NCBI GenBank assembly: GCA_902785295.1
Contig: CACZYK010000005.1
Coordinates: 1 to 49,167, forward strand
Direction of reading: 5' to 3'
Source of the DNA: an uncultured Clostridium sp.
GTDB lineage: Bacteria > Bacillota > Clostridia > Clostridiales > Clostridiaceae
DNA length: 49,167 bases
Under the pieces are notes generated by a model. It had not been told where the DNA came from, ran no database searches, and worked only from the letters and a program-made list of their open reading frames with translations. This document shows positions 12,592 through 46,122 of this stretch, one piece after another (the stretch's first letter is position 1; each line of letters begins with the position of its first letter). The position numbers were made by a program, and so were the translations under genes.

Positions 12592-13416
12592 ATGAAAAGA
12601 AAAGAAAGAGTTATCCCAGGATTTGGGTTATCTATGGGAATTACACTTCTTTATTTAGGATTAATAGTTTTAATTCCTTTAGTAAGTGTAGTTATTAAAA
12701 GCTCAAGTATTGGATTAAGTGGAATTATTGATACAGTAACTAACCCAAGAGTTTTATCAGGATTTAAAGTAAGCCTTCAATGTTCTTTAGCAGCTGCTTT
12801 AATAAATAGTGTTTTTGGACTTATATTATCTTGGGTACTTGTAAGATATAAATTCCCTTTTAAAAGACTTTTAGATGGAATTATAGACCTTCCATTTGCT
12901 CTTCCAACAGCAGTAGCAGGAATTGCATTAACAGCACTTTATTCAAAAAATGGATGGATAGGTTCTAAGTTATACAAATTAGGAATTGAATCTTCATTTT
13001 CTAAGTTTGGAATTACAATAGCTTTAATATTTATAGGAATTCCTTTTGTAGTTAGAAATATTCAGCCAGTTTTAGAAGAATTAGATAGTCAGTATGAAGA
13101 AGCAGCTGAAATGCTAGGAGCAGGAAAAGTAAGAACTTTCTTTAAAGTAATTTTCCCAGAATTACTTTCACCTCTTTTAACAGGCTTTGCTTTGGCTTTT
13201 GCTAGAGGAATAGGTGAATATGGTAGTGTTGTATTTATAGCAGGAAATATGCCTATGAAAACAGAAATAGCACCTCTTCTTATAATGAGTAAGCTTGAAC
13301 AATATGATTATGCAGGAGCAACTGCAATTGCTTTAGTAATGCTTATATTATCATTTATAATACTTTTTTCAATAAACTTAATTCAAGTTCATACAAATAA
13401 ATTTACAAGGGAGTGA
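12592..13416 (+). CDS. cysT: Sulfate ABC transporter permease CysT
   Basis: A 274-residue permease with six hydrophobic segments and the ABC-coupling EAA loop (EAAEMLGAGKVRTFFKVIFPE, near residue 165). The family stretch DLPFALPTAVAGIALT is also present. The ATG at 12592 is chosen over GTG 12583 because GAGGTGG is spaced correctly for it. It pairs with CysW and CysA in sulfate import. Its stop is 6 bp before cysW. Confidence 0.94.
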   Translation: MKRKERVIPGFGLSMGITLLYLGLIVLIPLVSVVIKSSSIGLSGIIDTVTNPRVLSGFKVSLQCSLAAALINSVFGLILSWVLVRYKFPFKRLLDGIIDLPFALPTAVAGIALTALYSKNGWIGSKLYKLGIESSFSKFGITIALIFIGIPFVVRNIQPVLEELDSQYEEAAEMLGAGKVRTFFKVIFPELLSPLLTGFALAFARGIGEYGSVVFIAGNMPMKTEIAPLLIMSKLEQYDYAGATAIALVMLILSFIILFSINLIQVHTNKFTRE

Positions 13417-29242: not shown

Positions 29243-29270
29243 TTTTGCCCCTCTTTTTGCCCCTTATAGA
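29243..29270. repeat. Left attachment site (attL)
   Basis: A 28-bp sequence (TTTTGCCCC at its start, GCCCCTTATAGA at its end) repeated exactly at 41914-41941. It starts 5 bp beyond the integrase stop. Identity ends precisely at both edges (T versus A before, T versus A after). Confidence 0.92.
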
Positions 29271-29274
29271 TTTT

Positions 29275-30429
29275 TTAATTAAAAGTTTTGCTTAACTCAT
29301 CAAGTTTCTTAACAGCAGTTTCTTTTGTTTCTTTCAAAACATGGGTATAAATATCTAAAGTCATAGATATAGAAGAATGACCCAACAATTCCTGGACTGT
29401 TTTAGCACTTTCCCCAAGTTCAAAGAGTCTAGTTGCATAAGTGTGCCTCAAGTCATGGAATTTTCTATCTTCTAAACCAACCTTTAATAATATTTCTTTA
29501 AAAGCCTCATGCAAATTTGGAGGTGCTACTATATTGCCAGTTTTAGCAGTAAATAAATTGTTACTTTCTTTAAATTGGATACCTATTTTTAAGCTTTCCT
29601 CTTTTTTGAATAACTTATATTGCTTTAATCTTTTTACCAAAAAGTCAGGAAGAGGAACAACTCTATTTCCTTTTGCAGTTTTAGGAGTTCCAACTTTTAT
29701 ATATTCTTTACTTCTACTATCCTTTGTGATGTCAATAACTCTACCTGCAGTTTTGCTTACTGTAACAGTATTTTTAATAAAGTCTATATCATTCCATGTA
29801 AGGGCTAATATTTCCCCTTTTCTTAATCCAGTATATAGAGCTACTAGGAATAATACTTCATATCTATGCCCCTCTATAGCTTTTAAGAATCTCTTTTGTT
29901 CCTCAAGAGTAAAAGGCTTTACTTTTTTATCATTTGTTTCAGATTTTTTTGGGACTGAGTACATCCTAGAAAAATCTTTTATTATATAACCATTATTATA
30001 TGCGTATCTTATGCAAGGTGCTATTATTCTATTTGCTACTGATAGCAAAGAATTTGATACATCTTTTTGATATAATTTATTAAAATATTTTTGTACATCA
30101 ATAGCTTTTAAAGATTTTAGCTTTATATTATATATCTCATTGTTTACAATATACTTTCTGAAAATAGAATCATAAAGCATTTTAGAGCGAGACTTTAACC
30201 CTATAAACTTTACATCATAGAGCCAGTCTCTTAAAAAATCTCCAAAAATAATTTCATTAGCTTTTACTCCGTGATTTAATTCATTAGTTATATTTTTAAT
30301 CTTAGTTTCCAATTCTTTAACAGTTTTTGCGTAAATATCTTTAGGTTTTTCTAAATTCTCATGACGTAGCCTAAAGAAGTAGTATTCTTTACCGTTTTTA
30401 ATTTTCTTTTTATATACTGTTTTAGCCAT
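29275..30429 (-). CDS. int: Tyrosine recombinase integrase
   Basis: A 384-residue phage-type integrase. An N-terminal AP2-like arm-binding region (KNGKEYYFFRLRH), a SAM-like core-binding domain (about 65-160) and a catalytic domain are present. Active-site residues are visible: Arg in YTGLRKGE, HxxR in HDLRHTYATR, His in LLGHSS and Tyr in LDIYTHV. It catalyses integration and excision between the 28-bp repeats. It is convergent with the left chromosome side and its stop lies 4 bp from attL, which is typical for such elements. Ribosome site AGGAGG. Confidence 0.96.
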   Translation of the reverse strand: MAKTVYKKKIKNGKEYYFFRLRHENLEKPKDIYAKTVKELETKIKNITNELNHGVKANEIIFGDFLRDWLYDVKFIGLKSRSKMLYDSIFRKYIVNNEIYNIKLKSLKAIDVQKYFNKLYQKDVSNSLLSVANRIIAPCIRYAYNNGYIIKDFSRMYSVPKKSETNDKKVKPFTLEEQKRFLKAIEGHRYEVLFLVALYTGLRKGEILALTWNDIDFIKNTVTVSKTAGRVIDITKDSRSKEYIKVGTPKTAKGNRVVPLPDFLVKRLKQYKLFKKEESLKIGIQFKESNNLFTAKTGNIVAPPNLHEAFKEILLKVGLEDRKFHDLRHTYATRLFELGESAKTVQELLGHSSISMTLDIYTHVLKETKETAVKKLDELSKTFN

Positions 30430-30530
30430 TTTAAGACCTCCTAAAAGTTTAACTATATTCTATAAGGGGTAAGTATATATTTAATCTTATAGAGCCTAAT
30501 AACTAAGTTCAGATTGAAGAGGAAGGCACA

Positions 30531-31106
30531 TTATAAGTCAAATGTACTAAAATCTATTTCTAAATCATCATAAATATTTACTTTTACTTTATCCTTGAAT
30601 GTATAGGAATTTACTAAATCATAAAATCCATTTTCACCTAGAAAGTATACAAAAATACTCCTTTTTCTAGGGTCAATAATCCAATATTCTTTAACTTTAT
30701 ACTTTTGGTAAAGATTTAATTTAGTTACATAGTCATGCCCAGCATTTGAAGGTGATATTATTTCAACTATCATATCAGGAGACCCAACGCACTTTTTACC
30801 GTCACTTAGTTTATTCTTATCACATATAACTGAAATGTCGGGTATGACGATATTAGAGCATTCCTCAACCTCTTCATTATCATTTTTTAGTATTACATCA
30901 AATGGAGCAGTAAACACTTTACAAGGTCCTTTATTTGCTTTAATGTAGCTTTGTATTTCAAATAGTAAATTAGTAATTAAGCTTTGATGAATAACTGAAG
31001 GTGAACCCATATTAAATAATTCTCCTTCTATAATTTCTATTCTTTCATCACCTGGAAAGGTTAAATAATCCTTGTAAGTATAGATTTTATTTTTATTAGG
31101 TATCAT
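30531..31106 (-). CDS. Uma2-family (DUF820) PD-(D/E)xK nuclease-like protein
   Basis: 191 residues of the Uma2 family: YTYKDYLTFPGDERIEIIEGEL at the start, the catalytic Asp in VIPDISVI, Glu in DMIVEIISPSN and a Lys-Lys stretch (KYKVKEYWIIDP) that follows. Uma2 proteins have a restriction-endonuclease fold but mostly unknown roles. It lies between the repressor and the integrase on the strand transcribed during lysogeny, the position where satellites often place cargo such as immunity genes. AGGAGG-like GGAGG precedes the start. Confidence 0.85.
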   Translation of the reverse strand: MIPNKNKIYTYKDYLTFPGDERIEIIEGELFNMGSPSVIHQSLITNLLFEIQSYIKANKGPCKVFTAPFDVILKNDNEEVEECSNIVIPDISVICDKNKLSDGKKCVGSPDMIVEIISPSNAGHDYVTKLNLYQKYKVKEYWIIDPRKRSIFVYFLGENGFYDLVNSYTFKDKVKVNIYDDLEIDFSTFDL

Positions 31107-31298
31107 TCTAAAGCCTCCTTTACTGATTAAGGTATAATTTATAAGCTAATAATATAAAAGCCCTTGTATGGGGCGTATAGTTGCATATAGTGGCAATTAT
31201 TATTAATAGTAATATGTCAACTTTTGTTAAGTTTTAAATATACTAATAAATTAAACCTACAAAAACCTACCTTTATTAATTATTTCTTTTAGTCAAAC

Positions 31299-31440
31299 CA
31301 ACGAATTTCGTTGTTTAGATGTCCTATTTAAGGACTTCTAAAGTAGTGTTTTGCTACCTTAGGTTATTTATTCCTGAAGTACGAATTTCGTACTTCTAAA
31401 ATACCGTTTTAGTAGTTTTGATTATTTACTTCTATTGGAG
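31299..31440. repeat. Tandem hairpin array beside the repressor gene
   Basis: Within the 343-bp gap between the nuclease and repressor genes are successive inverted repeats: 31299-31313 (perfect), 31321-31335, 31343-31357, 31376-31396 (GAAGTACGAA/TTCGTACTTC, perfect) and 31396-31412. Two units of about 60 bp align: a variable palindrome, then ACTTCTAAA, a GTTTT-centred part and TTATTTA. The 31107-31298 part of the gap shows nothing further. Confidence 0.75.
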
Positions 31441-31449
31441 CATTAGCTT

Positions 31450-32076
31450 TTATTTTTTAGATGTAGCATTTTTTAAGATATTTTCTAAAAGTATATGAAT
31501 TATATTTTTCAAATCTTCTTTATTTTCTTTAGATATAGTTTCAATATTATACTTATCTTTAAATATGTCAGTATTATAATCTAAAATTAACCCGTCTATT
31601 ATTTCGTCCTCTGTAAAAGAAACATTATTCTTTATTTTTTTTAATATCTTGTTTGGGTCAGCAGATATTTCAAAAACTGATTTTCTTTTCATAACATTTA
31701 CTAAGCCTATACTGTTTTCATAATATTCATCATTCCATTTACTAGGCTGAATAAATAAATGGTTAAAATTTTCTTCAGTTTTAAATGCTTTATCTTGTTT
31801 TTTAGCATACTCACGCAGATTATTAGAAAGTTCACTTATGGAAGCTACACTTTGGTATTTGTCTGAAAAATCATATTCTAATAAGGCAACTGGTGGCACA
31901 TCAAAAAAAGAAGCTATCTTATAAATTAAATCAATAGATGGGTTTGTTTTAACTCCTTTTTCAATTTGTTGGATATAGGCACCACTAACCCCCAAAATTT
32001 CTCCTAGTTTGCTTTGAGATATTTTATTATCTTCCCTTAACTTTCTTAAATTCTTTCCTAAATAACATTTATTCAT
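31450..32076 (-). CDS. CI/Stl-like XRE repressor of the element
   Basis: 208 residues. An N-terminal XRE HTH (LRKLREDNKISQSKLGEILG, then SGAYIQQIEKG) occupies about residues 9-65. The C-terminal 140 residues are helical and charged and show no Ser-Lys LexA/S24 peptidase motif, so SOS-driven self-cleavage is unlikely. Derepression by a helper-phage protein, as for Stl of staphylococcal islands, is an inference. It is divergent from the Cro-like gene across three identical operators. Confidence 0.85.
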   Translation of the reverse strand: MNKCYLGKNLRKLREDNKISQSKLGEILGVSGAYIQQIEKGVKTNPSIDLIYKIASFFDVPPVALLEYDFSDKYQSVASISELSNNLREYAKKQDKAFKTEENFNHLFIQPSKWNDEYYENSIGLVNVMKRKSVFEISADPNKILKKIKNNVSFTEDEIIDGLILDYNTDIFKDKYNIETISKENKEDLKNIIHILLENILKNATSKK

Positions 32077-32117
32077 ATCATCACCTATATATATTATAAA
32101 CTATAAAACAAAAAAAA

Positions 32118-32187
32118 TAAACTAAGTTTAAAAAATAGTTGCATAAACTAAGTTTAAAATATATAATATAAATATAAACTAAGTTTA
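32118..32187. promoter_or_regulatory. Triple operator and divergent promoter of the element switch
   Basis: Three copies of the perfect 13-bp palindrome TAAACTAAGTTTA at 32118-32130, 32144-32156 and 32175-32187 lie between the divergent repressor and Cro-like genes. TTGCAT (32139-32144), 17 bp and TATAAT (32162-32167) form the rightward promoter. The middle copy fills its spacer and the last copy overlaps the start of the transcript. Confidence 0.88.
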
Positions 32188-32201
32188 AGGAGGGGCTCAA
32201 A

Positions 32202-32420
32202 ATGGGAAAAAAGATAAAAATAGCAAGAATAAAATTAGGGTTGAAGGCTCAAGAAGTCGCAAAAAAATGCGAAATATCATACACATACTATTCAAAATTA
32301 GAAAATGAAAAAGTTAAAAATCCAAGCAGGGAAACAATGATAAAAATTAGTAAAGCTTTAGGAATTTCAGTTCAAGAATTATTCTTTTCAGATGATAAAG
32401 AGGAAAGCAAACAAAACTAA
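32202..32420 (+). CDS. Cro-like small XRE protein
   Basis: 72 residues, almost entirely one XRE HTH: KIKIARIKLGLKAQEVAKKC and ISYTYYSKLENEKVKNPSRE. It is divergent from the larger repressor and first on the rightward transcript, with AGGAGGGG before the ATG. It probably competes for the same TAAACT/AGTTTA operators. Confidence 0.88.
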   Translation: MGKKIKIARIKLGLKAQEVAKKCEISYTYYSKLENEKVKNPSRETMIKISKALGISVQELFFSDDKEESKQN

Positions 32421-32599
32421 AAATTTTAATAAAAAAACTGATTTTTTTAATAGTTTTAGTGCTTTAAAAATCAACAATTCAGTAAAAGAGCATTTTATTA
32501 ATAATTGCATTTCAAATTAAGCATATCTAAAAGCAAATCTAATTAACTGATAAGGTAGACAACAGGAATTATTAATTAATAAATAAGGTGGTGGAGCAA

Positions 32600-32887
32600 A
32601 TGGAACAAATGAACCAGGGATTATATAATCAATTTCTTTCAATGCTAGTTAATGAAATTATAGGACAAGTCAATAAGCAACTAGAGTTGAAGTTAAAAGA
32701 AGAAAAGACAGAAATTTTAGTATTATCTCCTAAGGAAGCTATGGAAGTTTTAGATGTATCACAAACAGTTATGTATAATGACTTACTTAAAAGAAAAGAT
32801 TTTCCTTCTTACAGGGTAGGTAATAAGTGGTACATTTCAAAGCAGGGGTTAGCTGAATGGGTAGAAAAACAAGCTAATAAGGAGTGA
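32600..32887 (+). CDS. Excisionase-like HTH protein
   Basis: About 95 residues. A Gln/Met/Asn-rich helical N-terminus precedes a MerR/AlpA-like HTH_17 domain: LSPKEAMEVLDVSQTVMYND, then FPSYRVGNKWYISKQGLAEW. Such proteins serve as excisionases or AlpA activators in satellites. The ATG at 32600 is preferred over GTG 32588 since AAGGTGG is upstream. It is followed by another small gene 7 bp later. Confidence 0.82.
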   Translation: MEQMNQGLYNQFLSMLVNEIIGQVNKQLELKLKEEKTEILVLSPKEAMEVLDVSQTVMYNDLLKRKDFPSYRVGNKWYISKQGLAEWVEKQANKE

Positions 32888-32894
32888 TTTTATT

Positions 32895-33230
32895 ATGAGT
32901 AATAAAGAACTATGTAAGCAATTAGAAACAGGAACATTTTATTATTACAAATTTGGATTACTTGTAAAGTTACCAGTTGCAGAAGTAATTGATAAAGAGG
33001 ACTTCATAACATTAGATTTTGCTAATAATGCAGGTTATGTTGATGTTTTTGTGGACCATATGCAGAAAGTTAGCAGACCAGGAAATATAATTGCTAAATT
33101 CAAATGGTGCTATTCTTTAAAAAATGATTATGGAGACCATATAGGCTATATAGGAAAAACAGAGGAAGAGGACAAACTATACAAGGCTATGGATAAGGCA
33201 ATAGATGAAGCTATGAAAGAAGAAATATAA
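32895..33230 (+). CDS. Unknown element protein in the replication operon
   Basis: 111 residues, acidic, with no recognised domain. Aromatic stretches such as FYYYKFGLLVKLP and KFKWCYSLKNDYGDHIGYI suggest a compact alpha/beta fold. It lies between the excisionase-like and primase-helicase genes with 6-7-bp gaps and AAGGAG upstream, so it is translated with them and may help replication. Confidence 0.7.
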   Translation: MSNKELCKQLETGTFYYYKFGLLVKLPVAEVIDKEDFITLDFANNAGYVDVFVDHMQKVSRPGNIIAKFKWCYSLKNDYGDHIGYIGKTEEEDKLYKAMDKAIDEAMKEEI

Positions 33231-33236
33231 AAGGTC

Positions 33237-35879
33237 ATGGGTGCAACTATGGAAATACAAGATATAAACTTAAAAGAATTAATAAAAAAAGAAATAGGGT
33301 TAGAATTTGGCAAAAATAATAAAATAAGTTGTCCATTCCATGCAGAGAAAACGCCTTCTCTTAGTGTTCATTTTAATAGTAATACTAATAGAGCAACATA
33401 TAAGTGCTTTGGGTGTGGAGCATCTGGAGATGCAATTCAATTTATTATGGATTATAAAAATATGTCATTTATAGAGGCTAGAAAGTATTTAGGGCTTGAA
33501 GAGGAAGAACCAGAGCAGAAAAAAATAAAAAATTTATTAGAAGAATATTGTAAATGGCTTATGAATAAAGATAAGGATTTAAAAGAATTATTAGGTATAT
33601 TCACTTATGTAAATGAGGAGAACAAGCCTATATATTATAAAGCTAAGTTTAAAACAAATAGCAAGAACACATATAGGTTTCTCCACATTTACGAATATAA
33701 TGGTAAAAAATCAGTTAAGCAAGGTATGAGCTTTAATGGCTCGAACATTCAAATACTTCCATATAATTATTATAACTTACTTCAAGGAATAGGACAAAAT
33801 AAAGTAATAGTTATAACGGAAGGTGAAAAAGATGCTAATACATTAAATCATGTTTTGCCTAATAAAAATTATGTTGCAACAAGTGTTAAAGATGTAAAAG
33901 ACTTTTCATTTTTAAATGGGGCTAAGGTTTATATAGTTGGAGATACTGGAGAGGCAGGACTTAAATATATAGATACCATTAAGAAAAATATTGTAAATAT
34001 TGTAGAAGAGTTAAGAGTTGTTACTTTGCCAAGACTTGAAGATTTAGGGGACAACAAAGACATTACAGACTGGATAGAAGCAGGGCACACTAAAGAAGAA
34101 TTATATAGAGCATTTAATAAAAGTCTAAATTTAAAAAGTCGTTATGATTTACAACAAAATTCAGTTGGTATTTATAAGCAAGTACCCAGCAAGGTGAATG
34201 AAGGGGACTATGACAAAATTTATATAACTAATTTTCAAATTCTGAAAGCAGTATCAACAGTTAATATTGATGAAAATATAGAAGGTGTAGAGCTTACAAT
34301 AAGGGCTGATAATGGAAATATCTTAATTGTTAAAGCATTAGCCACAGACTTTGATGATATAAAATCATTTAGAAACAGATTAGGGTCAATGGACTTAGCA
34401 TTTAAAGGGAAAATAAATGATTTAATCACTTTAAAGGAATGGGTAGCAAAATATTTTATTAATTCAAGATATAAGCTTATTAATGGAAATAAATTTCTAT
34501 ACAAAGATAATAAGTTAAATTTCATTATTTCAGATGGAGCAGTAAGTGGTGCAGGTATAGATAAGACTATTAAAAGTAATGAAGATAATCTTAAAATAAA
34601 CCTTCCAGAAGGAGTTATAAGCAAAGATGAACTCAAGGAGCTTATGGAATATTTATTTAAATTTACCACTCCAGCACGTGCATATTCAATTATAGGTACC
34701 TTAGTTAACAATTTAGCAGTAGCACAGACTGAAAAGTTAGGAATAAGCTTACACAATTTATTAATAGCTGGTGGAGCAGGTGGAGGAAAGACAACAATAT
34801 TAAAAAAAGTTGTGGCACCTCTTCTCAATTATCCAATAAAATTTATAAAACCTATAGGAGAGACAACAAAGTTTGCTATGATAAAAGACTTATCTAGTGG
34901 AAACTATACAATTTTATATGATGAATACAAACCCTCAATGATGAGCAAATATAGAATTAATGAACTTAGTAATTTATTTAGATTTACTTATGATAGGGAA
35001 GCAGTACCAAGAGGACAAAAAAATATGACTGTAAAAAATTATCATATGGGAAGACCAATTATCATGGCAGGTGAAGAAAGTTTTGCTTATGGAGAAGCTG
35101 CACAATTCGAAAGGAACTGTATAGTATATCTTTCTAAAGACGAAAGAACAACAGAAAATACTAAAGCTATGGAGTATTTAATAGAGCATGAAGAGACTTT
35201 AAACAAGTTAGGCAAGGAATTAATTAAAGAAGTTTTAAGCCTTAACATAGATGACTATAAGGCTATTAGAAAGGGAATTACAATAAATACTATTGACGCA
35301 AGAGTGTCAAACACGGCTTTAAATATTTGTGCTGGTATGGAGATATTTAATAGAGTTCTTGTTAAGTATGATTTGCCAATAATAGATAACTTTATAGAGC
35401 CAATAGTGGAGAATTTAAAAACCGAAGTATTAGAAGATAGAGAAACAGTTTCAAGTGTAGTGGAAAATCTTTTAAAGAAGTTTGATGAGCTTTTAGAAGA
35501 TAATAAAGTAACTAATCCAGATAGAGTAATCCAAGATAAAAGAGATGGAACAGAAATATACATTAAAACTAATTTAATGTTAGATGAAATAAGATTGTAT
35601 GTAAAAAATACTAATAATAATGACATCACAGTAATTTCTGATAAAGATTTTAAAAAACAGGCAAAAAAAGCAGGTTATATTTTAGGTGCTGGAAGAGATG
35701 GAAGAGTAATAAAAGTAAGAGAAGATGAACCATCTAAATATAAGACAGTTAGATTTGACATTTACAGTAAAGAAAAATTAAGAACACTTGAAGTTAATTC
35801 AATAGTAGAACCAGAACTTACTCCAGTAAGTGAAGAAGAGGCGAAAGTAATTCAAGGTGTTTTTGATAATAAAAAATAG
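33237..35879 (+). CDS. Primase-helicase fusion (CHC2 zinc finger, Toprim-like, P-loop helicase)
   Basis: 880 residues. A DnaG-type zinc finger has CPFH at 32-35 and CFGC at 57-60. A Toprim-like region has ITEGEKDAN near 197 and VGDTGEAG near 238. A long middle part leads to a helicase with Walker A GGAGGGKTT near 511-519, Walker B-like YTILYDEYKP near 558 and a following arginine-rich stretch. Such fusions replicate satellites and phages from an adjacent origin. An iteron cluster starts at the end of this gene. The start at 33237 has AAAGG only 2 bases away, so ATG 33249 is an alternative. Confidence 0.9.
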   Translation: MGATMEIQDINLKELIKKEIGLEFGKNNKISCPFHAEKTPSLSVHFNSNTNRATYKCFGCGASGDAIQFIMDYKNMSFIEARKYLGLEEEEPEQKKIKNLLEEYCKWLMNKDKDLKELLGIFTYVNEENKPIYYKAKFKTNSKNTYRFLHIYEYNGKKSVKQGMSFNGSNIQILPYNYYNLLQGIGQNKVIVITEGEKDANTLNHVLPNKNYVATSVKDVKDFSFLNGAKVYIVGDTGEAGLKYIDTIKKNIVNIVEELRVVTLPRLEDLGDNKDITDWIEAGHTKEELYRAFNKSLNLKSRYDLQQNSVGIYKQVPSKVNEGDYDKIYITNFQILKAVSTVNIDENIEGVELTIRADNGNILIVKALATDFDDIKSFRNRLGSMDLAFKGKINDLITLKEWVAKYFINSRYKLINGNKFLYKDNKLNFIISDGAVSGAGIDKTIKSNEDNLKINLPEGVISKDELKELMEYLFKFTTPARAYSIIGTLVNNLAVAQTEKLGISLHNLLIAGGAGGGKTTILKKVVAPLLNYPIKFIKPIGETTKFAMIKDLSSGNYTILYDEYKPSMMSKYRINELSNLFRFTYDREAVPRGQKNMTVKNYHMGRPIIMAGEESFAYGEAAQFERNCIVYLSKDERTTENTKAMEYLIEHEETLNKLGKELIKEVLSLNIDDYKAIRKGITINTIDARVSNTALNICAGMEIFNRVLVKYDLPIIDNFIEPIVENLKTEVLEDRETVSSVVENLLKKFDELLEDNKVTNPDRVIQDKRDGTEIYIKTNLMLDEIRLYVKNTNNNDITVISDKDFKKQAKKAGYILGAGRDGRVIKVREDEPSKYKTVRFDIYSKEKLRTLEVNSIVEPELTPVSEEEAKVIQGVFDNKK

Positions 35880-36152
35880 TTACACAGGTAACACCATAAA
35901 ATTAAATGTGTTACCTAATGTGTAACCTCAATAAATGGCTTTATATCTAGGTTTTATTAATATAAATATTATAAAGTTACACAATTACACTAAATAATAA
36001 ATATGTATCTTTCACATGAGAATATTTATTATATATAAAAAAATATAGACTATGTGTTTTTATTTTGGTGTAACCTTGAAAAAAAGTTTAATAAAGCTAG
36101 AGTATAAGCCAGTTGTAGAGATTTTCAAATGTGTAACCTAAATGTGTAACCT
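35878..36152. repeat. Iteron cluster, probable replication origin
   Basis: TGTGTAACC or a one-base variant occurs directly at 35919-35927, 36067-36075 (GGTGTAACC), 36130-36138 and 36143-36151. It occurs as TGTGTTACC at 35907-35915 and inverted at about 35879-35895 and 35976-35990. The first copies form a long hairpin (GGTAACAC/GTGTTACC inside GTTACACA/TGTGTAAC). The copies flank a very AT-rich stretch (35960-36060) directly after the primase-helicase gene. Confidence 0.75.
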
Positions 36153-36185
36153 TGATTAAATTGCATTGAAAGGGGGTGATGTAGA

Positions 36186-36353
36186 ATGAAAAATTCTGTA
36201 AAAAAGCGTTCTTTAAAAATTTCAAACACTGCAAAGGAAATGAAACGTATAGAAGAATTAAGCAATAAAAATATTTATGGTGGCTCAAGATATATGAATA
36301 GGAGTAAAAGAAGGAGATTAGAAAAACTTAAAAAGAAAGGATTGATTGAGTAA
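36186..36353 (+). CDS. Small basic protein, unknown
   Basis: 55 residues, strongly basic (MKNSVKKRSLKISNTAKEM, then a SKRRRLEKLKKK end), so nucleic-acid binding is plausible. AAAGGGGGTGAT lies ideally before the ATG. Its TAA overlaps the next ATG by one base (TAATG), indicating translational coupling. No family is recognised. Confidence 0.75.
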   Translation: MKNSVKKRSLKISNTAKEMKRIEELSNKNIYGGSRYMNRSKRRRLEKLKKKGLIE

Positions 36354-36577
36354 TGAAAAGAGAAAATTTAAGAAGAGTAAAATGTAAATATTTTGCTGAT
36401 AGAGTTAAATCGGGATATGCTAAAGAGGCTTTTGGAGAACAAGTGGACAAGTTTGATGTAATTCTAAAAGAAAATGAAGGCTATTTCCATGAATGGAATG
36501 GCGGAAGGGCAATTATAGAACTTGAAGATGGAACAATAATTCAGACGCCATACTGGTTTGTACAGTTTATAAGCTAA
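36353..36577 (+). CDS. Small protein, unknown
   Basis: 74 residues with a mixed alpha/beta look: a basic start (MKRENLRRVKCKYFADRVK) and a C-terminal beta-like part (RAIIELEDGTIIQTPYWFV). It is coupled to the previous basic protein by a one-base stop/start overlap. I do not recognise a family. Confidence 0.72.
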   Translation: MKRENLRRVKCKYFADRVKSGYAKEAFGEQVDKFDVILKENEGYFHEWNGGRAIIELEDGTIIQTPYWFVQFIS

Positions 36578-36599
36578 CAAATGCTAATACCAAGATAAA

Positions 36600-36930
36600 A
36601 AAATAGTGAATACAGATACGGTTAATACCTATATTCACCTGGAGCAATTCCAAAAGGATATGCAAACAAACCAATATAAGTATATCCTTTAGGAGTTAAA
36701 AATTCAATAGGGGAGGGGGTACTGTAAAAAGTCCCGTGTGTTTTTTGAAGGTACACACCTCGGTCTATTTAAAAACGCCTACAAGCTTTTTAAGGGGGGA
36801 GTAGTCCATTTAATGACTAAATACCCTATGAAGATTGTAAAAGCAATACAGAGCCTTTTATAGTGTTTACAAAAGGACATAATAATATTAATTGGAGGGT
36901 GCAAGTTTGCACTTTACTAGAAAGGAAGTG
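36600..36930. other. Gene-free stretch with several inverted repeats and a G-rich motif
   Basis: GTGAATA/TATTCAC arms lie at about 36607-36639. AAAGGATAT/ATATCCTTT lies at about 36653-36690, with AGGAGTTAAA next to it as in the repeat copy at 38164. GGGGAGGGGG is at about 36710-36720, and GTGTGT/ACACAC arms are near 36738-36760. No frame here looks coding. It may be a structured leader RNA or, speculatively, a cleavage or packaging signal. Confidence 0.45.
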
Positions 36931-36936
36931 TTAAAA

Positions 36937-36993
36937 ATGGATACTTACATAAAGACTTTACTTGAGATAATGCAGGAGCTAGAAGAGAAATAA
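36937..36993 (+). CDS. 18-residue peptide ORF
   Basis: MDTYIKTLLEIMQELEEK, an acidic amphipathic helix, with AAAGGAAGTG correctly spaced upstream. It is first of four tiny, closely packed frames. Very small, so only moderately certain. Confidence 0.45.
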   Translation: MDTYIKTLLEIMQELEEK

Positions 36994-37018
36994 ATTTAGA
37001 TGTAAAGGAGTGTTAACA

Positions 37019-37096
37019 ATGACTAATGCAGAAATGGAGTTGCTAGAAGCATACTACAAGCTAGTAGAAATGTTAGAAGAGGAGGACAATAACTAA
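37019..37096 (+). CDS. 25-residue acidic peptide ORF
   Basis: A short Glu/Leu-rich helix (MTNAEMELLEAYYKLVEMLE at the start) with AAAGGAGTG upstream. Its TAA overlaps the next ATG by one base. It resembles the preceding 18-residue peptide in style. Confidence 0.5.
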   Translation: MTNAEMELLEAYYKLVEMLEEEDNN

Positions 37097-37161
37097 TGGG
37101 AGAAGCTGAAAAGTATTTGATATGGATTATCAAGAATTTAGACAAAATAAGAAAGAAATAA
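37096..37161 (+). CDS. 21-residue peptide ORF
   Basis: Starts MGEAEKYLIWIIKNLDK and has a short basic end. It is coupled to the preceding peptide by TAATG, and GAGGAGG lies about 9 bases upstream inside that gene. An amphipathic or membrane-touching helix is likely. Confidence 0.45.
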   Translation: MGEAEKYLIWIIKNLDKIRKK

Positions 37162-37174
37162 GGAGTATAGAGCA

Positions 37175-37330
37175 ATGATTAAAGTAAGAATAAGCTATAC
37201 ATCAGAAGAGGAAAAGGACAAGCTACTTATAAGCTTATCCAAGAGCCACAAGATATTAAGTATAAGTAAGGCTTACAAGAATAGGAATAATGATAATAAA
37301 AGGGTTTATGTAGATTTAGAAATTAAATAG
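37175..37330 (+). CDS. 51-residue protein, possibly DUF3970-like
   Basis: Begins MIKVRISYTSEEEKDKLLIS and ends with a beta-strand-like RVYVDLEIK. The beta-alpha-beta pattern and the MIKVRI start recall small phage/clostridial DUF3970-type proteins, a weak match from memory. AAGGAG lies ahead of the ATG. It closes the tiny-gene cluster. Confidence 0.6.
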   Translation: MIKVRISYTSEEEKDKLLISLSKSHKILSISKAYKNRNNDNKRVYVDLEIK

Positions 37331-37387
37331 TTAATGTTGGGGGATTTATTCCCTCTTCAAAATAAATATAAAGGAGCATGAAGCAAT

Positions 37388-37882
37388 ATGAAGAGTAAGG
37401 AGCTATCAATTAAAGAACTTCAAGAAGACATCACCAAAGTATTAAAAGGATTTAATGATGTAGTAAATGCAGAACTAAATAAGGTCATAATAGATAATGG
37501 AGCAGAAAGCTACACCAGAGAAGCAACTCAAGAGAACGAATTAGACTTTATTAGAAACGCATGGGCTAATGCAAGTCAAGAACTTTCAGAACTAGGGATT
37601 AACATTGAAGAGGAAACAGTAGGGGAACAAACTAATTATATCTACTTTGAATTAAATGAGGTTATGGAACAAGCTTATATTGATGAAGAAGTTGCAGAGC
37701 TTGAATATAATGGAATGATTATTCAATATGATGGATTAAGAAAGGCAAGTGATGATATGTTAATTTTCTATAAAGATATTGATGATGAAAGCACAGAAGT
37801 AGCAAGAATAATATTAAATCAAGATAAGAAATATGAATTAAATAAGACATCAAAATATAGTGTTGAACTTGTAAGAAAATAA
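37388..37882 (+). CDS. Unknown acidic element protein
   Basis: 164 residues, acidic, apparently soluble and two-part: a helical N-terminal half (KELQEDITKVLKGFNDVVNA) and a beta-rich C-terminal half (YNGMIIQYDGLRKASDDMLI and later). AAAGGAG before the ATG. No family recognised. An imperfect AGGGGCT/AGCCTCT hairpin follows at about 37895-37921, which may end the transcript. Confidence 0.72.
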   Translation: MKSKELSIKELQEDITKVLKGFNDVVNAELNKVIIDNGAESYTREATQENELDFIRNAWANASQELSELGINIEEETVGEQTNYIYFELNEVMEQAYIDEEVAELEYNGMIIQYDGLRKASDDMLIFYKDIDDESTEVARIILNQDKKYELNKTSKYSVELVRK

Positions 37883-37930
37883 ACAGTAATAACTGGAGGG
37901 GCTTTGTAGCCTCTTCAAGTTAGATAATGG

Positions 37931-38027
37931 GTTTTGGACATACCTATAGGGATTAAATACTTAAAAGGAAGACCTTCCTTTTCTAAAACTTCTTTAAGTT
38001 TTGGACATACCTATAGGGATTAAATAC
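37931..38027 (+). repeat. CRISPR-like repeat-spacer-repeat unit 1 (family 1)
   Basis: Two identical 30-bp repeats, 37931-37960 and 37998-38027, flank a 37-bp spacer. The repeat starts GTTTTGGACA, has TACCTATAGGG in the middle and ends TTAAATAC. The spacer contains a perfect hairpin (AAAAGGAAG, AC, CTTCCTTTT). No cas gene is near. Confidence 0.7.
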
Positions 38028-38163
38028 CCATCTTCCCATTTTGGGAATGTGCTAAGGATGCCCTAAATTAGGGCGGTGGTTTATTAAACTTAATACCAAA
38101 ATGGTATTGAGTTCTCACCTGCATTATTTAATTTTCGGATGGGACAATTGGTCACATCTGAAT

Positions 38164-38260
38164 GTTTTGGATATACCTATAGGAGTTAAATACTAGTCTA
38201 AAACTCGTGCCCATTCCACGCCTGAGTTTTGTTTTGGACATACCTATAGGGATTAAATAC
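38164..38260 (+). repeat. CRISPR-like repeat-spacer-repeat unit 2 (family 1)
   Basis: Repeats at 38164-38193 (three mismatches, including GGAGT for GGGAT) and 38231-38260 (identical to unit 1) flank a 37-bp spacer. The spacer holds AAAACTC...GAGTTTT arms. The 136 bp between units 1 and 2 carry further hairpins (GCCCTAAATTAGGGC near 38059; AATACCA/TGGTATT near 38092), but no third repeat. Confidence 0.7.
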
Positions 38261-38404
38261 TTTTGGTACCGACATTTATGTTAGGAACATATGTTTTATA
38301 AAAACAATAATAATTCCTACTCTATCCACTAAATAGGGGTATAAAAGGGGTACAACGTACCACTATTAATAATAAAATATCCTAAAAAATAAGTGGAGTA
38401 GAGC

Positions 38405-38653
38405 ATGGAGCATTACTTGGAGCATTACATGGAAGGAGTTGAAGAGTATATGAAATTGAGAAGAGTATCAGATGAAGATTACAAAAGCGAGACTATTAAA
38501 GTGCATTTATCCAAAAGAGAAAAGGACAGATTAGAAGTATACGCCTCAAGATTAGGAATGAACATAAGCCAGTACATTAGAACAAAGTGCATTTATGAAC
38601 CTTATGAGAAATTGGAGAGTGAATGGAGTTATGGAAGAGATAGAATTTATTAA
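38405..38653 (+). CDS. Ribbon-helix-helix, MobC-like protein
   Basis: 82 residues. After a short acidic start the sequence ETIKVHLSKREKDRLEVYA and LGMNISQYIRTKC matches the ribbon-helix-helix region of MobC/relaxosome accessory proteins. No relaxase is visible in the element, so it could equally be a transcriptional repressor of RHH type. AGTGGAG precedes the ATG, and GGTAC/GTACC arms lie upstream near 38350. It overlaps the next gene. Confidence 0.65.
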   Translation: MEHYLEHYMEGVEEYMKLRRVSDEDYKSETIKVHLSKREKDRLEVYASRLGMNISQYIRTKCIYEPYEKLESEWSYGRDRIY

Positions 38654-38933
38654 AGGGCTTATAGTAACCTTGTGGGTATTCTACATAATATTTTTATTAA
38701 TTCCTATGATAGCCCTAGACTTTTACACAGATTACACAATTAAGAAACTCCAGAAGGAGAGAAGGACATACAACTTAAAAAGTGAGTACCTAGAGATAGA
38801 ATTAAATTCAGATGACACTAAAAGGCTATATAGGGTCATGGAGCATGAAGGATATACCAACAAGGATAAATATATCAATGATAAATTAAAAGCTTTAGAG
38901 AAGGAAAGAGATGAGTTTAAATGGATATCTTAA
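38631..38933 (+). CDS. Small single-pass membrane protein
   Basis: About 100 residues: one strong N-terminal helix (about 8-30, LIVTLWVFYIIFLLIPMIAL) then a charged helical cytoplasmic-type tail. The ATG at 38631 is preferred to the upstream in-frame start at 38595, which has no ribosome site. It overlaps the RHH gene by 23 bp and the next gene by 13 bp. Unknown function. Confidence 0.65.
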   Translation: MEEIEFIKGLIVTLWVFYIIFLLIPMIALDFYTDYTIKKLQKERRTYNLKSEYLEIELNSDDTKRLYRVMEHEGYTNKDKYINDKLKALEKERDEFKWIS

Positions 38934-39064
38934 CAGTATTATGTATAGTAGCAACATTACAAGTCATTTTATACTACTTAACTTATAGGAGAATTAAGAC
39001 CATTATTAATAAGTTGTTCCAGGAGAAGAGGAAAAGCTTAGAGTATTTCAAAGAGAATAAATAA
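38921..39064 (+). CDS. 47-residue membrane protein
   Basis: One N-terminal membrane helix (ILTVLCIVATLQVILYYL) followed by a basic tail ending FKENK. It starts inside the previous gene. The pattern of small membrane proteins recalls holin-like or phage lysis/exclusion peptides, but no family is recognised. Confidence 0.6.
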   Translation: MDILTVLCIVATLQVILYYLTYRRIKTIINKLFQEKRKSLEYFKENK

Positions 39065-39101
39065 CACATGGTTCTGATGGAGCATGAAAGGAGATGATAA
39101 T

Positions 39102-39350
39102 ATGTATAATTCAAGTTTTAACGATATATGCTTGTATGACGGTGACGACTTACACGACGCATTAAGCATTGTCAAAAAGGTAAAATATCACAATGAAATA
39201 CTAAATGTTGATAATTGGTATTACAATGGAAACAAATTCATAATTGAATGTAATAATAAAGAGTATCAAATATATAACGATTTAGGCTTATATGTGGTTG
39301 AGGAATTAGAAGAAAACTATATAGAAATTTTTGATGTAGTAAAGCAATAG
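39102..39350 (+). CDS. Small acidic protein, unknown
   Basis: 82 residues, acidic and beta-rich (WYYNGNKFIIECNNKEYQIY). The start at 39102 fits AAAGGAG 8 bases upstream better than ATG 39084. A terminator follows closely. Family not recognised. Confidence 0.68.
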   Translation: MYNSSFNDICLYDGDDLHDALSIVKKVKYHNEILNVDNWYYNGNKFIIECNNKEYQIYNDLGLYVVEELEENYIEIFDVVKQ

Positions 39351-39356
39351 TACCAA

Positions 39357-39395
39357 AGGGAGAGGAAATTAAAAGCCTCTTCCTTATTTTTTTCG
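39357..39395 (+). terminator. Intrinsic terminator in the element
   Basis: GGAGAGG and CCTCTTCC arms with an A-rich loop, followed by TTATTTTTTT. It ends the small-gene operon at 39350. Confidence 0.75.
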
Positions 39396-39810
39396 CCCTC
39401 TTGTGGTCGAACAATACAAGGTAATAATTTAGCTGATATTTAGACTATGGAGCATTGAAACTCTATCAACAATTTAATCAACAATGTTAATAGAATAAAT
39501 TTATTTTTGAGTTTTTGGAGTCCTTAAAAAGCCTCTTCATGCTTTATATAACGGCAAGATTACGGCAAGACATATTATATATATGGAACGCTTACAAAAC
39601 GAATACCGAACGTTTTAGAGTTAATATGCTAAGAAATGCTAAGATTAAGCAACCTCATAGAACCTCAAAGATGTTTAGAAATGTCAAGGTTGAAGCCTAG
39701 AAGAAGCTAATACAATCTTTAAGAACTCATTTTATATGAAAAAATATTTATTCTACCCACAAGCTAACAATCTCATCAGAATTTAGAAGCATACCTTCTA
39801 TAATGCTTAC

Positions 39811-39908
39811 TGGTAAGGCACAACTATATAAATTCTTTTACTCGTCCATTTTGGACGAATGGCTTTATTTCGGCGTTTGGTAAGGCACAACTATATAAAT
39901 TCTTTTAC
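39811..39908 (+). repeat. CRISPR-like repeat-spacer-repeat unit 3 (family 2)
   Basis: An exact 31-bp repeat at 39811-39841 and 39878-39908. It begins TGGTAAGGCACAACTA and ends ATTCTTTTAC. The period is 67 bp, the same as units 1 and 2. The spacer again starts with a perfect hairpin (TCGTCC, ATTTT, GGACGA). Confidence 0.7.
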
Positions 39909-40174
39909 CAGATAGAGAACCAGTAAAGATTTATATAAAAAATAGATTTCATATTATTATAAAAGTACAATCCTAAGTATTAATAACCTATTTAAAATTA
40001 TTTTTTTATCAGAAAGAAGGATATTTTTATTAATTCTTAGTAAATAATTCTTTAGCATTTATACATAAAATTTCATGCGTTTTTGTATCTTTTTTAAGCG
40101 AATTTATGAAGAAAAAGACTTGTAAATGGCGTGGTTATCACGTTTTATCGTTTCGTTTTTGAAAAAAGTACAAT

Positions 40175-40198
40175 TTCGCTAAATATGTGTTTAGCGAA
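40175..40198. repeat. Perfect 9-bp stem hairpin
   Basis: TTCGCTAAA and TTTAGCGAA around a six-base loop, ahead of the small XRE gene. There is no T-run, so it is more likely a protein-binding or RNA structure than a terminator. Confidence 0.6.
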
Positions 40199-40320
40199 TA
40201 AATCTTAATAATAAATAATAAAAAACGAATTATAAATTATAAAATATTAATTAAAAATGATAATAGCATTAAAATGTGATATAATATCATTAAGAATTAA
40301 TTTATATTGGAGTTGATAAT

Positions 40321-40542
40321 ATGAGAGATAAAACAGTTTTAAAAGTTGCTAGAATAAGAAAAGGCTATACAATAGAGCAATTAGCACCATTAGTTAAGCT
40401 TAGTAAGAATACAATGAATAAATATGATAAAGGATATTTTAGAAATATAAAGCTGGAGACTTTGAAGAGGCTTGAGGAAGTATTAGAATTGAATCCAATG
40501 GATATATATAATAATATGGAGCCTTTGGAAGATGAAGAATAA
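40321..40542 (+). CDS. Small XRE-family regulator
   Basis: 73 residues with one HTH (KVARIRKGYTIEQLAPLVKL, then SKNTMNKYDKG) and an acidic end. TTGGAG before the ATG and a TATAAT near 40280 give it its own promoter. It likely controls the following two genes or the non-coding region upstream. Confidence 0.82.
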   Translation: MRDKTVLKVARIRKGYTIEQLAPLVKLSKNTMNKYDKGYFRNIKLETLKRLEEVLELNPMDIYNNMEPLEDEE

Positions 40543-40591
40543 TTAATTATCTGATATAATATAATCAATTAATTTTAGGAGTGTGGCAAAT

Positions 40592-40894
40592 ATGGATAAG
40601 GAAATATTAGAATTATTACAAGGTATGGCAGAAAGTATTAATTCCTTAACAATGGAAGTTAAAGGATTAAAAACAGGTCAAGAGGAACTGAAAGCAGATG
40701 TTAAAGGATTAAAGGAAGGTCAGGAAGAGTTAAAGACAGAAGTTAAAGCAATAAATAAGAAAGTAGATACTTTATATAATGCACTTGCAGAAGCTAAAGA
40801 AGATATTACAGAAATTAAAAATAAAGTTGATAAGCTGGAGAATGTAACAAGAGTTAATTGTTACGAGATAGCAAATTTAAAATTAGTTAAGTAA
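40592..40894 (+). CDS. Coiled-coil protein with heptad repeats
   Basis: 100 residues, nearly all coiled coil: repeated VKGLKTGQEELKADVKGLKE-like heptads (about 25-60) and a second helix with DITEIKNKVDKLEN. The ATG at 40592 has AGGAG 10 bases upstream; GTG 40583 is too close. Similar short coiled coils occur in Firmicute phages. The role is unknown; oligomerisation is likely. Confidence 0.75.
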   Translation: MDKEILELLQGMAESINSLTMEVKGLKTGQEELKADVKGLKEGQEELKTEVKAINKKVDTLYNALAEAKEDITEIKNKVDKLENVTRVNCYEIANLKLVK

Positions 40895-40926
40895 GTACCC
40901 TATAAATTTATTATAGAAAGCTTTAG

Positions 40927-40983
40927 AGCTATGGGAAGTCAAGTATGCAGATTTATGTGTACCTCTTCCTATAGCTTTTTTAT
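40927..40983 (+). terminator. Terminator after the coiled-coil gene
   Basis: AGCTATGGGAAG (40927-40938) pairs with CTTCCTATAGCT (40965-40976) with one G-T wobble, then T6. Confidence 0.8.
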
Positions 40984-41020
40984 ATTTATATGAGTATTTT
41001 AGTAAAGGGGGCTTATACAA

Positions 41021-41737
41021 GTGACTAATGAGGAATTAGTATATTTATATCAGCAAGGCAACAAAAACGCCTTAGAGGAGCTTATAGAGAATAATAAAGG
41101 TATTGTATTTAAGCTAGTAAATAAATTTAATATAGATTATAACCATACTATTGAAAAGGAAGACCTAGAACAAGAGGGATACATAGGGCTTGTAATTGCA
41201 GCAGAAAAATATGATTTTAATAATGACAAGAAAACCGCTTTTATTACTTATGCTATAAATTGGATATATCAAAGGATATACAGATTTGTTTGTGGTGCTA
41301 CTACTAAAGATTTAGGAAATACTAAATTTAATAAGAGTTGTATTAGTTTAAACACTCCAATTGATGAAGAAGGAGAAACGGAAATTTTAGATTATGTAGA
41401 GGGAGTAGACTATTCTTTTGAGAATGTAGAGGAAAAGATATATAATGAACAACTACACCAGGAGCTGGAGCAGACAATGAATGAAACTTTAACATTAAGA
41501 GAAAGAGAAGCAATAAAGTTTAGTTATGGCTGGAATAATATAAATCCTATGACCTTGAAAGAAATAGGAGATATATTTAATGTAAGTCAAGAAAGAATAA
41601 GGCAGATAAAACAGAAAGGATTTAGAAAATTAAGGACTAGCGAATGGGTAAAAATGAATAGACAAAGATTTATTGAAGAGGGTTATATAGAAGATCCTAA
41701 TAAATTTTTTAAGCATTGTATCAGTAGCAGGTGGTAA
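41021..41737 (+). CDS. Sigma-70-family factor of the element
   Basis: 238 residues. Region 2 is visible as GNKNALEELIENNKGIVFKL, EDLEQEGYIGLVIAAEKYDF and FITYAINWIYQRIYRF. Region 4 is seen as LTLREREAIKFSYG, MTLKEIGDIFNVSQERIRQI and KGFRKLR. It starts at GTG with AAAGGGGG about 10 bases upstream. It may redirect RNA polymerase to late promoters of the element or a helper phage. It is the last gene before attR and has its own transcript. Confidence 0.88.
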   Translation: MTNEELVYLYQQGNKNALEELIENNKGIVFKLVNKFNIDYNHTIEKEDLEQEGYIGLVIAAEKYDFNNDKKTAFITYAINWIYQRIYRFVCGATTKDLGNTKFNKSCISLNTPIDEEGETEILDYVEGVDYSFENVEEKIYNEQLHQELEQTMNETLTLREREAIKFSYGWNNINPMTLKEIGDIFNVSQERIRQIKQKGFRKLRTSEWVKMNRQRFIEEGYIEDPNKFFKHCISSRW

Positions 41738-41897
41738 ATGCTGATGTGGGAATATTTTATATATAAATGTGTGCTGGTACTGATGAAGAAGCTTTATTAT
41801 TTATCTCCTAGAGGTAGGGGGGTACTTAAAAAGTTTTGCTAAATTATTAAAAAGTCGCTTATCCAGAAAATTAATTACAGAATTCTAAATAAAAAAT

Positions 41898-41933
41898 AAA
41901 AAGGGCAATTTAATTTTGCCCCTCTTTTTGCCC
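41898..41933 (+). terminator. Terminator merged with attR
   Basis: AAAGGGCAA (about 41900-41908) pairs with TTGCCC (41916-41921), followed by CTCTTTTT. The right arm and T-run lie inside the 28-bp attachment repeat. Confidence 0.65.
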
Positions 41934-41941
41934 CTTATAGA
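41914..41941. repeat. Right attachment site (attR)
   Basis: Exact 28-bp copy of 29243-29270. It also shows an internal repeat of TTTTTGCCCC. Confidence 0.92.
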
Positions 41942-45712: not shown

Positions 45713-45875
45713 ATAAATTTTAAATAATTAGAGAATAATTTAAATTTTGTTTGGGAATATATGTATGAGCCAATAACTATAATATGTAGTATTTGGAATA
45801 TAGATATAAAGTAAAGGGAAGTTATCACTTATAAAAAATACTAAGTACTTTAAAATAGCTAATAAATAAAAAAAT

Positions 45876-45917
45876 CTACATAATGTAGTTGATTATTTAA
45901 ATAAAATAGTGTATCTT
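45876..45917 (+). promoter_or_regulatory. Promoter and BlaI-type operator before the small peptide and lipoprotein 2
   Basis: Palindrome-like CTACATAATGTAG (45876-45888) abuts TTGATT (45889-45894), followed by 17 bp and a weak TATCTT (45912-45917). Confidence 0.72.
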
Positions 45918-46007
45918 AAAGTTAGGGTGAATTTACCATTATTTCAAACTAATTAATAAAAATATAAATGTTCGAACAAAAGTATAAATATAAAATGGAG
46001 GTAGTAT

Positions 46008-46100
46008 ATGAAAAAAATAAAAAGTAAGAAAGTGATAATAGGTTTAATTTTAGGAGCAACAATAATGACTATGCCTGTTGTTGCTTCAGCAGAAAAATAA
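46008..46100 (+). CDS. 30-residue secreted-peptide precursor (signal peptide with almost no mature part)
   Basis: MKKIKSKKVIIGLILGATIM followed by TMPVVASAEK and a stop. It has a basic start, a hydrophobic core and an ASA cleavage site two residues before the end. GGAGG lies 6 bases upstream, and the gene stands between the BlaI-type promoter at 45876 and lipoprotein 2 (22 bp later), so it is expressed with that gene. It may be a leftover of a longer exported protein, a coupling leader, or a source of a signal-peptide-derived pheromone. Confidence 0.7.
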   Translation: MKKIKSKKVIIGLILGATIMTMPVVASAEK

Positions 46101-46122
46101 ATTTTCAAGGTGAATTAAAGTT

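Follow-up and report, generated by a model that had tools for sequence, protein, structure and literature searches.

Why should a mobile element that lacks cas genes carry short arrays with the dimensions of a CRISPR locus? The question arises from a window of 49,167 nucleotides (the whole stretch of DNA analysed here, from contig CACZYK010000005.1 of an uncultured Clostridium sp.), in which a 30-bp repeat, GTTTTGGACATACCTATAGGGATTAAATAC, occurs four times as two pairs, at 37931-37960, 37998-38027, 38164-38193 and 38231-38260. The start-to-start distances of 67, 166 and 67, with 37 bp in both spacers and 136 bp between the pairs, confirm the first-pass annotation, which had described four repeats in two pairs with a period of 67 and 37-bp spacers.

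Three repeat pairs on a satellite-like element

Unit 1 (37931..38027, plus strand) consists of two identical 30-bp copies around a 37-nt spacer, and unit 2 (38164..38260, plus strand) has the same layout with copies alike at 27/30; copies 1, 2 and 4 are identical, and copy 3 carries 3/30 changes. A paired-repeat scan, from which low-complexity pairs were filtered out as in all such scans here, added a third unit to the two noted earlier. In unit 3 (39811..39908, plus strand) a different 31-bp repeat, TGGTAAGGCACAACTATATAAATTCTTTTAC, stands at 39811 and 39878, again with a period of 67, around a 36-nt spacer with a 7-bp hairpin, and this repeat is unlike that of units 1 and 2. The first 20 bases of the unit 1/2 repeat had no other site in the genome itself at up to 2 mismatches; at up to 3 mismatches the 30-mer was present in only one of 206 family genomes, the one from which it came, and IMG/VR gave 0 matches to the exact unit-repeat patterns.

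The units lie in an integrative element of 12.7 kb (29243..41941) flanked by a 28-bp att-like direct repeat (29243-29270 and 41914-41941, spacing 12671). Adjoining the left copy is a gene for a tyrosine integrase (29275..30429, minus strand; PF00589 2.5e-29; phrog_1 1.1e-75), and the element further encodes a CI-like HTH repressor (31450..32076, minus strand; PF01381 5.5e-15; phrog_8 and phrog_3), a divergent Cro-like HTH gene (32202-32420), an 880-aa CHC2 primase-like protein (33237..35879, plus strand; PF01807 2.9e-20; phrog_26824 1.4e-272), a sigma factor (41021..41737, plus strand; PF04545 3.6e-15; phrog_351 8.7e-42) and several small proteins. The primase-like family also occurs in other clostridia, relatives sharing 40-47% identity. 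Integrase, divergent repressor pair, primase and att-like repeats are features of PICI-like satellites and support the earlier description of the element as satellite-like, a designation that we keep. The element has 20 ORFs of at least 60 aa, of which 15 were scanned; among the matches listed for these, none to a head or packaging family passes a curated cut-off, and the sub-cut-off matches listed for a coiled-coil protein include PF06810 (phage scaffold). No anti-CRISPR family appeared among the NCBIfam and PADLOC matches listed for the element, and no cas gene was seen among its scanned ORFs, in agreement with the first description.

Some neighbouring features may be recorded here. Inside the element, a Uma2-family gene (30531-31106) matches the PADLOC candidate defence family PDC-S03 (3.6e-56). 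A second non-coding, hairpin-rich stretch lies at 36580-36930; its ATATCCTTTAGGAGTTAAAAA resembles a decayed repeat copy by eye, and it is absent from the best local alignments, which are themselves no better than those of shuffles. Just beyond the element, 43493-48336 encodes two adjacent proteins of 739 and 737 aa that by eye are similar to each other and lipoprotein-like.

CRISPR repeats of the same cell

The genome carries, on contig C68, a type I-B set (Cas6, 8, 7, 5, 3, 4, 1 and 2) with 24 repeats, to which contig C49 adds 104, so that 128 repeats of 30 bp belong to a CRISPR of the subtype that matches the units. Their sequence is ATATTAGAGATACCTATAAGGAATTGAAAC on what we take, from established type I-B knowledge, to be the crRNA strand. 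The modal period of this array is 67 (69/126 spacings) and its modal spacer 37 nt (69/124, two spacings above 130 being left out). These are the dimensions of units 1 and 2, which bears out the CRISPR geometry that had been proposed for them.

The unit 1 repeat agrees with the C49/C68 repeat at 21 of 30 positions, ungapped and in exact register. This count was reached by 2 of 20000 dinucleotide shuffles and by none of 8000 control 30-mers compared with five repeats of the genome, 14 of which reached 20/30; the controls were drawn from the element and other sequence of the genome, and were tried on both strands at offsets of a few positions. When both strands of a further 399 kb of the genome were scanned in full with the host repeat, 21/30 was reached at two sites, and a third such site lies at window position 12963, outside the element, AT-rich and without the shared centre; given these three sites, the identity is rare, not unique. 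Over positions 7-22 the element repeat agrees with that of its own host at 14/16 and with same-class repeats of 18 other genomes at only 10-12/16. Over the whole 30 nt, one other genome has a repeat nearer to that of unit 1 (22/30) than the host's is, and two more tie with the host (21/30). This class of repeat was found in 27 of 391 genomes of the same taxonomic class (18 of the 27 being compared besides the host); the sample had 19 genomes of the same family, of which 2 carry it. The first-pass annotation had counted about 21 of 30 matches to a type I-B/III consensus and had seen a resemblance to type I-B repeats; the count holds against a real array, and the resemblance is now to the cell's own. 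It had also said that its reading would fall if no Clostridium genome had a type I-B repeat of close identity. The best real repeats agree at 21-22/30 and are not near-identical, an outcome that lies halfway.

The last 8 nt of the repeat, corresponding to the crRNA 5' handle, read ATTGAAAC in 24/24 C68 repeats and TTAAATAC in 4/4 element copies, a match of 4/8. The ATTGAAAC ending in other genomes arises partly by construction, as the search pattern required it. Divergence of the handle is not significant by itself (32/44 matches in the first 22 nt against 8/16 in the last 8 nt, pooled over units 1 and 3; p 0.13).

A further CRISPR locus of this genome bears on unit 3. It lies on C7, a contig of 100 kb on which PHROGs profiles, run on ten proteins, gave one portal, one exonuclease and mostly phage families of unassigned function, other genes being phage-like by eye. 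The locus (L141:6990-11696, about 70990-75696 on the contig) has 10 variable repeats near GTTGAGGTTCTACAATATAAGTTTTTAAAT, with spacings of 64-67, behind genes for Cas6b, Cas8b, Cas7b and Cas5. A profile search found no Cas1 on C7, and no Cas3 family was found among ten of its larger proteins. A tblastn search of C7 with host Cas1, 2, 3 and 4 gave no match, a negative that is weak by itself because the same method missed the Cas8 and Cas5 present there. Judged by its genes, the locus is apparently type I-B without Cas3, and we found no report of a phage type I-B system lacking Cas3 in the literature searched, mostly outside subscription journals. Its type of Cas7 occurs in 6 plasmid records; none was found in the phage collection, and none was confirmed in IMG/VR.

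Unit 3 agrees with the C7 repeat at 19/30, and at 20/30 with two of its ten copies; 19/30 is reached by 0.00055 of shuffles. When we compared 21 arrays (17 of related genomes and four of this one; a simple detector gave no array at three of 20 loci), the best match of unit 1 was C49/C68 with 21/30, the next reaching 16, and the best match of unit 3 was C7 with 19/30, the next reaching 15. The crossed pairs (unit 1 against C7, unit 3 against C49/C68) were at chance, as was unit 3 against the remaining repeats of the genome. The unit 3 match is nonetheless weak, since 70 of the 8000 control 30-mers reach 19 against some one of the five repeats of the genome, which puts the corrected p at about 0.01 for an assignment noticed after the fact. 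Separately, two further arrays (L131:10850-11360 and L016) have the repeat GTGGAAATT(A/G)CATTAGACCTGTTTAAGGGATTGTCAC, the one in L016 beside TIGR02221/TM1812-type CRISPR genes.

The coexistence of a satellite and a CRISPR-bearing phage has a known counterpart in Vibrio cholerae, where the CRISPR of phage ICP1 acts against the PLE satellite. Here, likewise, one genome contains a satellite-like element together with a phage-like contig that bears a CRISPR; unlike in ICP1 and PLE, the nine C7 spacers gave no match to the element that stands clearly above the null, and C7 is a putative helper only. Compared with the whole window, the C7 spacers reached at best 25/35, which was close to the reversed null and was discarded. 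Host spacers gave only partial matches to contig C7.

Spacers and the stretch between the units

The check proposed at the outset, a search of the spacers against phages and plasmids, came out empty: spacers 1, 2 and 3 had no match at E 0.01 in 50,697 phage and 72,556 plasmid records, the only matches in the searches for spacers 1 and 2 being to the stretch between the units. IMG/VR did not contain the one exact 18-mer of spacer 2 that was compared with it, and spacer 1 had no other site in its own genome at up to 3 mismatches. Targets within the element were considered and rejected, the best matches of the three spacers (14, 10 and 12) being values that host spacers also give (124 compared, up to 21); that of spacer 1, 14 nt in the sigma gene (repeat family D12), is likewise within this range.

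The genome's own spacers were also compared with the element. Among the 164 tested, spacer 28 of the C43 array (c43_28), the host's second type I-B array (L015), matches the primase gene of the element at 31/38 (33614..33651, minus strand). By position the same site scores 24-29/38 in about 18 relatives, and reversed spacers reach at most 72%. On this match the host seems to remember a member of the element family, by its C43 array and not by the C49/C68 array that the units resemble. Because the mismatches include spacer positions 1, 2 and 5, the resident element may evade this spacer. Spacers of C49/C68 reached at best 26/37 and 27/38 against the element; three were slightly above two nulls, and we did not rely on them.

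The 136-nt stretch between units 1 and 2 (38028..38163, plus strand) lies inside a strongly folding region, and its nature goes beyond what the first-pass annotation had covered. It contains a terminator-like hairpin (38059-38075), one of four terminator-like sites where 0.8 were expected; promoter-like sites, 19 against 18.4 expected, gave no signal above chance. Its last part, read on the minus strand (38112..38163), is a 52-nt copy of a hairpin motif from phage Bro-N antirepressor genes and is antisense to plus-strand transcription. It matches the inside of phage Bro-N genes at 82.7% and 85.4% (E 2e-5 and 5e-6), and its best match in family genomes is 85% over 52 nt (E 6e-10; in each genome other than those itemised, at most 4 candidates were scored). 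With flanks included in the query, the match breaks off either at repeat 3 or no more than 4 nt from where that repeat starts.

An 11-bp inverted repeat in this motif shows compensatory changes across nine sequences, namely the window, seven Bro-N genes (some identified by flanks only) and a copy that neighbours a Bro-N gene in genome G202. Covariation is 0.359 against 0.123 in shuffles, of which 0/500 reach it, and slid versions give 0.025-0.111; 4 of the 11 pairs are changed on both sides (equalled by 17/500 shuffles) and 3 are invariant. Because the inverted repeat covaries, what these sequences have in common is apparently a hairpin at the nucleic-acid level, more than a mere piece of a gene. 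More widely, Bro-N genes of several phages and clostridia (L087, L007, L008, L114, L116-L118) have this covarying 11-bp inverted repeat in their coding sequence, most with a conserved CGAAAATTAAA(T/C)AAT after it, and the inverted repeat is also found outside Bro-N genes (in the window and in L116). Positions 37-85 of the middle stretch also matched other genomes in part; their surroundings there appeared unrelated, and we disregarded them as palindromic or AT-rich matches.

The genome itself has one Bro-N match, on C7. The predicted duplex of 38112-38163 RNA with the C7 Bro-N sequence has -45 kcal/mol, compared with -34 for the best of 20 shuffles, and a plus-strand RNA of the element would be antisense to the C7 Bro-N gene. 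C4 and IsrK are antisense RNAs against phage antirepressors. The element resembles them in having a non-coding stretch antisense to an antirepressor gene, and differs in that its stretch pairs inside the Bro-N coding region and sits between CRISPR-like units.

Proposed decoys and rival explanations

Two functions had originally been suggested for the units: a mini-array serving competition between mobile elements, or an RNA decoy that mimics crRNA and blocks the host Cas complex. The decoy fits better and the competition mini-array less well, since the spacers have no match in the collections searched and none above the host-spacer range in the element, and the handle is not kept. We therefore tentatively read the units as crRNA-mimicking RNA decoys, comparable to Racr but in mini-array form, a possibility that we place slightly short of probable. 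Units 1 and 2, transcribed from the plus strand, would offer their RNA to the chromosomal type I-B Cas6 and then to Cas7. With the right centre, the wrong 8-nt 5' handle and spacers without a known target, this RNA would draw the Cas proteins into non-functional complexes, and unit 3 may do the same to another type I-B locus, that carried by the phage-like contig C7. Transcription, binding by Cas6 and Cas7, inhibition and the assignment of unit 3 are thus the steps that we infer.

A decoy would account for the geometry and for the likeness to repeats of the same cell; it would also make sense of a changed handle, of spacers for which no target was found and of two different repeats that share one period. 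It does not account for two repeats per unit, a form that a decoy would not need. We count in its favour that the relatives examined have no 24-bp pair (at least 21/24) at a spacing of 58-76, and that spacer c43_28 matches the primase gene at 31/38. Against it we count that such units are absent from the surroundings of the primase gene in 20 relatives (cut short in two), and that the first 8 nt of the element repeat match the host repeat at only 5/8; these are the nucleotides that Cas6 binds in a haloarchaeal I-B system (PMC9458426). Identity to the cell's own repeats, 70% and 63-67%, also lies far under 90% and speaks against a decoy.

This figure matters since RNA anti-CRISPRs are described as solitary repeats (SRUs), sought with SRUFinder at 90% identity or more, and mini-arrays were set aside in that search (PMC10651486). 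According to the same source, RacrIF1 exerts its effect via Cas6f and Cas7f although it has no usable handle; it tolerates changes to the handle, and works mainly via the product upstream of the Cas6 cut (PMC10651486). The element shares with Racr and SRUs a mimic of a repeat of its host's own subtype, placed on a mobile element without cas genes, and a functional handle is dispensable in Racr as there described (PMC10651486). Its units are intergenic with no cas genes nearby, as SRUs are. Unlike Racr and SRUs, they have two repeats and a spacer each, at a period of 67, where an SRU has no second copy within 100 bp; there are three of them, possibly with two target systems; and their identity is 63-70% instead of at least 90% (21/30 and 19-20/30 to the genome's own repeats, and at most 22/30 elsewhere).

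In CreTA modules the nucleotides bound by Cas5 are preserved in the first repeat, and each module is in physical linkage with its CRISPR-Cas locus (PMC9458426). Like them, each unit has two degenerate repeats around one spacer-like stretch and is tied to type I-B; unlike them, the units sit on a separate mobile element and have lost the handle (PMC9458426). A CreTA module lies beside cas genes and has a spacer matching its toxin RNA promoter, whereas no cas genes were seen among the scanned ORFs of the element and no spacer match in it exceeds the range of host spacers. The mini-arrays of the archaeal viruses SPV1 and SPV2, as reviewed in PMC11656645, have host-identical repeats and mostly spacers with targets in related viruses. 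The units are like them in that a mobile element lacking cas genes carries arrays of a single spacer, and unlike them in that their repeats are not identical to the host's and no spacer targets were found in the collections searched (PMC11656645).

The main rival to the decoy reading is that the units are a structured regulatory RNA or protein-binding repeats without a CRISPR link, serving replication, antitermination or helper-gene regulation, with a likeness to CRISPR repeats that is coincidental; we consider this rather unlikely. Folding argues for it. The region 37883-38280 folds with a z-score of -5.09, equalled by 0/100 shuffles, the self-complementary CCTATAGG joins the two repeats of a unit in predicted folds, and TCTAAAAC, common to spacers 1 and 2, is complementary to the repeat start GTTTTGGA. 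A comparable spacer-repeat pairing, made of other letters, is predicted for unit 3, though its duplex p is 0.119, and the Bro-N hairpin motif lies between units. The original claims of structure survive in part. Inverted repeats had been seen in both spacers; spacer 2 folds clearly (z -3.07) and spacer 1 does not (z -0.77, equalled by 43/200 shuffles), the spacer of unit 3 giving -2.54. Each spacer end had also been said to pair with the start of the next repeat. Duplexes of the spacer with the first 10 nt of that repeat support this for units 1 and 2 (p 0.0145 and 0.005), but the pairing probability within the fold, with p 0.036, 0.40 and 0.04 for units 1-3, does not do so for unit 2, and a pairing of at least 0.7 with their own repeat is also seen in 14 of the 124 host spacers. 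A structured RNA thus accounts for the fold and the Bro-N hairpin and leaves the repeat identities aside: a fold needs no direct repeats of 30/30 and 31/31 at the exact CRISPR period of the host, nor two different repeats that are each best matched by a different CRISPR of the same cell. Replication iterons are less likely, given the likeness to CRISPR repeats and the wide period, and promoter repeats for the sigma factor were dismissed, the hexamer spacing not fitting a sigma-70 promoter by eye.

The units might instead work as mini-arrays, loading host I-B Cascade with element spacers against a competing phage or for gene repression, in the manner of virus-borne arrays or CreA. Their repeat-spacer-repeat form with the host's period and spacer length favours this, and the search results reported above, for spacers 1-3 in phages and plasmids, the spacer 2 18-mer in IMG/VR, and spacer 1 in its own genome and the element, do not. 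Missing targets weigh little here, since most natural CRISPR spacers also lack a known target. As for the repeats, CreTA modules do have diverged ones, but the first repeat of CreA keeps the Cas5-binding nucleotides that the units have lost (PMC9458426), and viral mini-arrays are described with repeats identical to the host's, from which the units have diverged (PMC11656645). We regard a working mini-array as improbable. Off-target integration, in which Cas1-Cas2-Cas4 put one 37-bp spacer with a 30-bp duplication into each of three element sites and left passive neo-CRISPR loci, seems very improbable to us. Each unit is indeed a perfect or near-perfect duplication of 30-31 bp around 36-37 bp, in host dimensions, but three such events within 2 kb are hardly to be expected, when 399 kb of other sequence of the genome holds two pairs outside arrays at spacings of 60-75 (23/24 at spacing 69 in L131, 22/24 at spacing 64 in L140). 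Moreover, folding as good as that of spacers 1, 2 and 3 is found in only 12, 7 and 2, respectively, of the 124 host spacers, and the spacers of the units carry anti-repeats.

Taken at its fullest extent, the decoy reading would have one satellite-like element deploy decoys against two CRISPR-Cas systems, the chromosomal I-B with units 1 and 2 and the C7 I-B without Cas3 with unit 3, and an antisense hairpin against the C7 Bro-N gene within the unit 1/2 RNA; this combined scheme we think unlikely. A satellite-borne, paired mimic of CRISPR repeats has no earlier report that we found in the literature searched, mostly outside subscription journals. If a satellite does carry mimics of this kind matched to two CRISPR systems, searches for solitary repeats at 90% identity or more would miss a class of decoys that is paired and diverged, and satellites would use RNA for defence against the CRISPR of both host and phage. 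If the two-target scheme were true, this would amount to a satellite's RNA arsenal aimed at host and phage alike.
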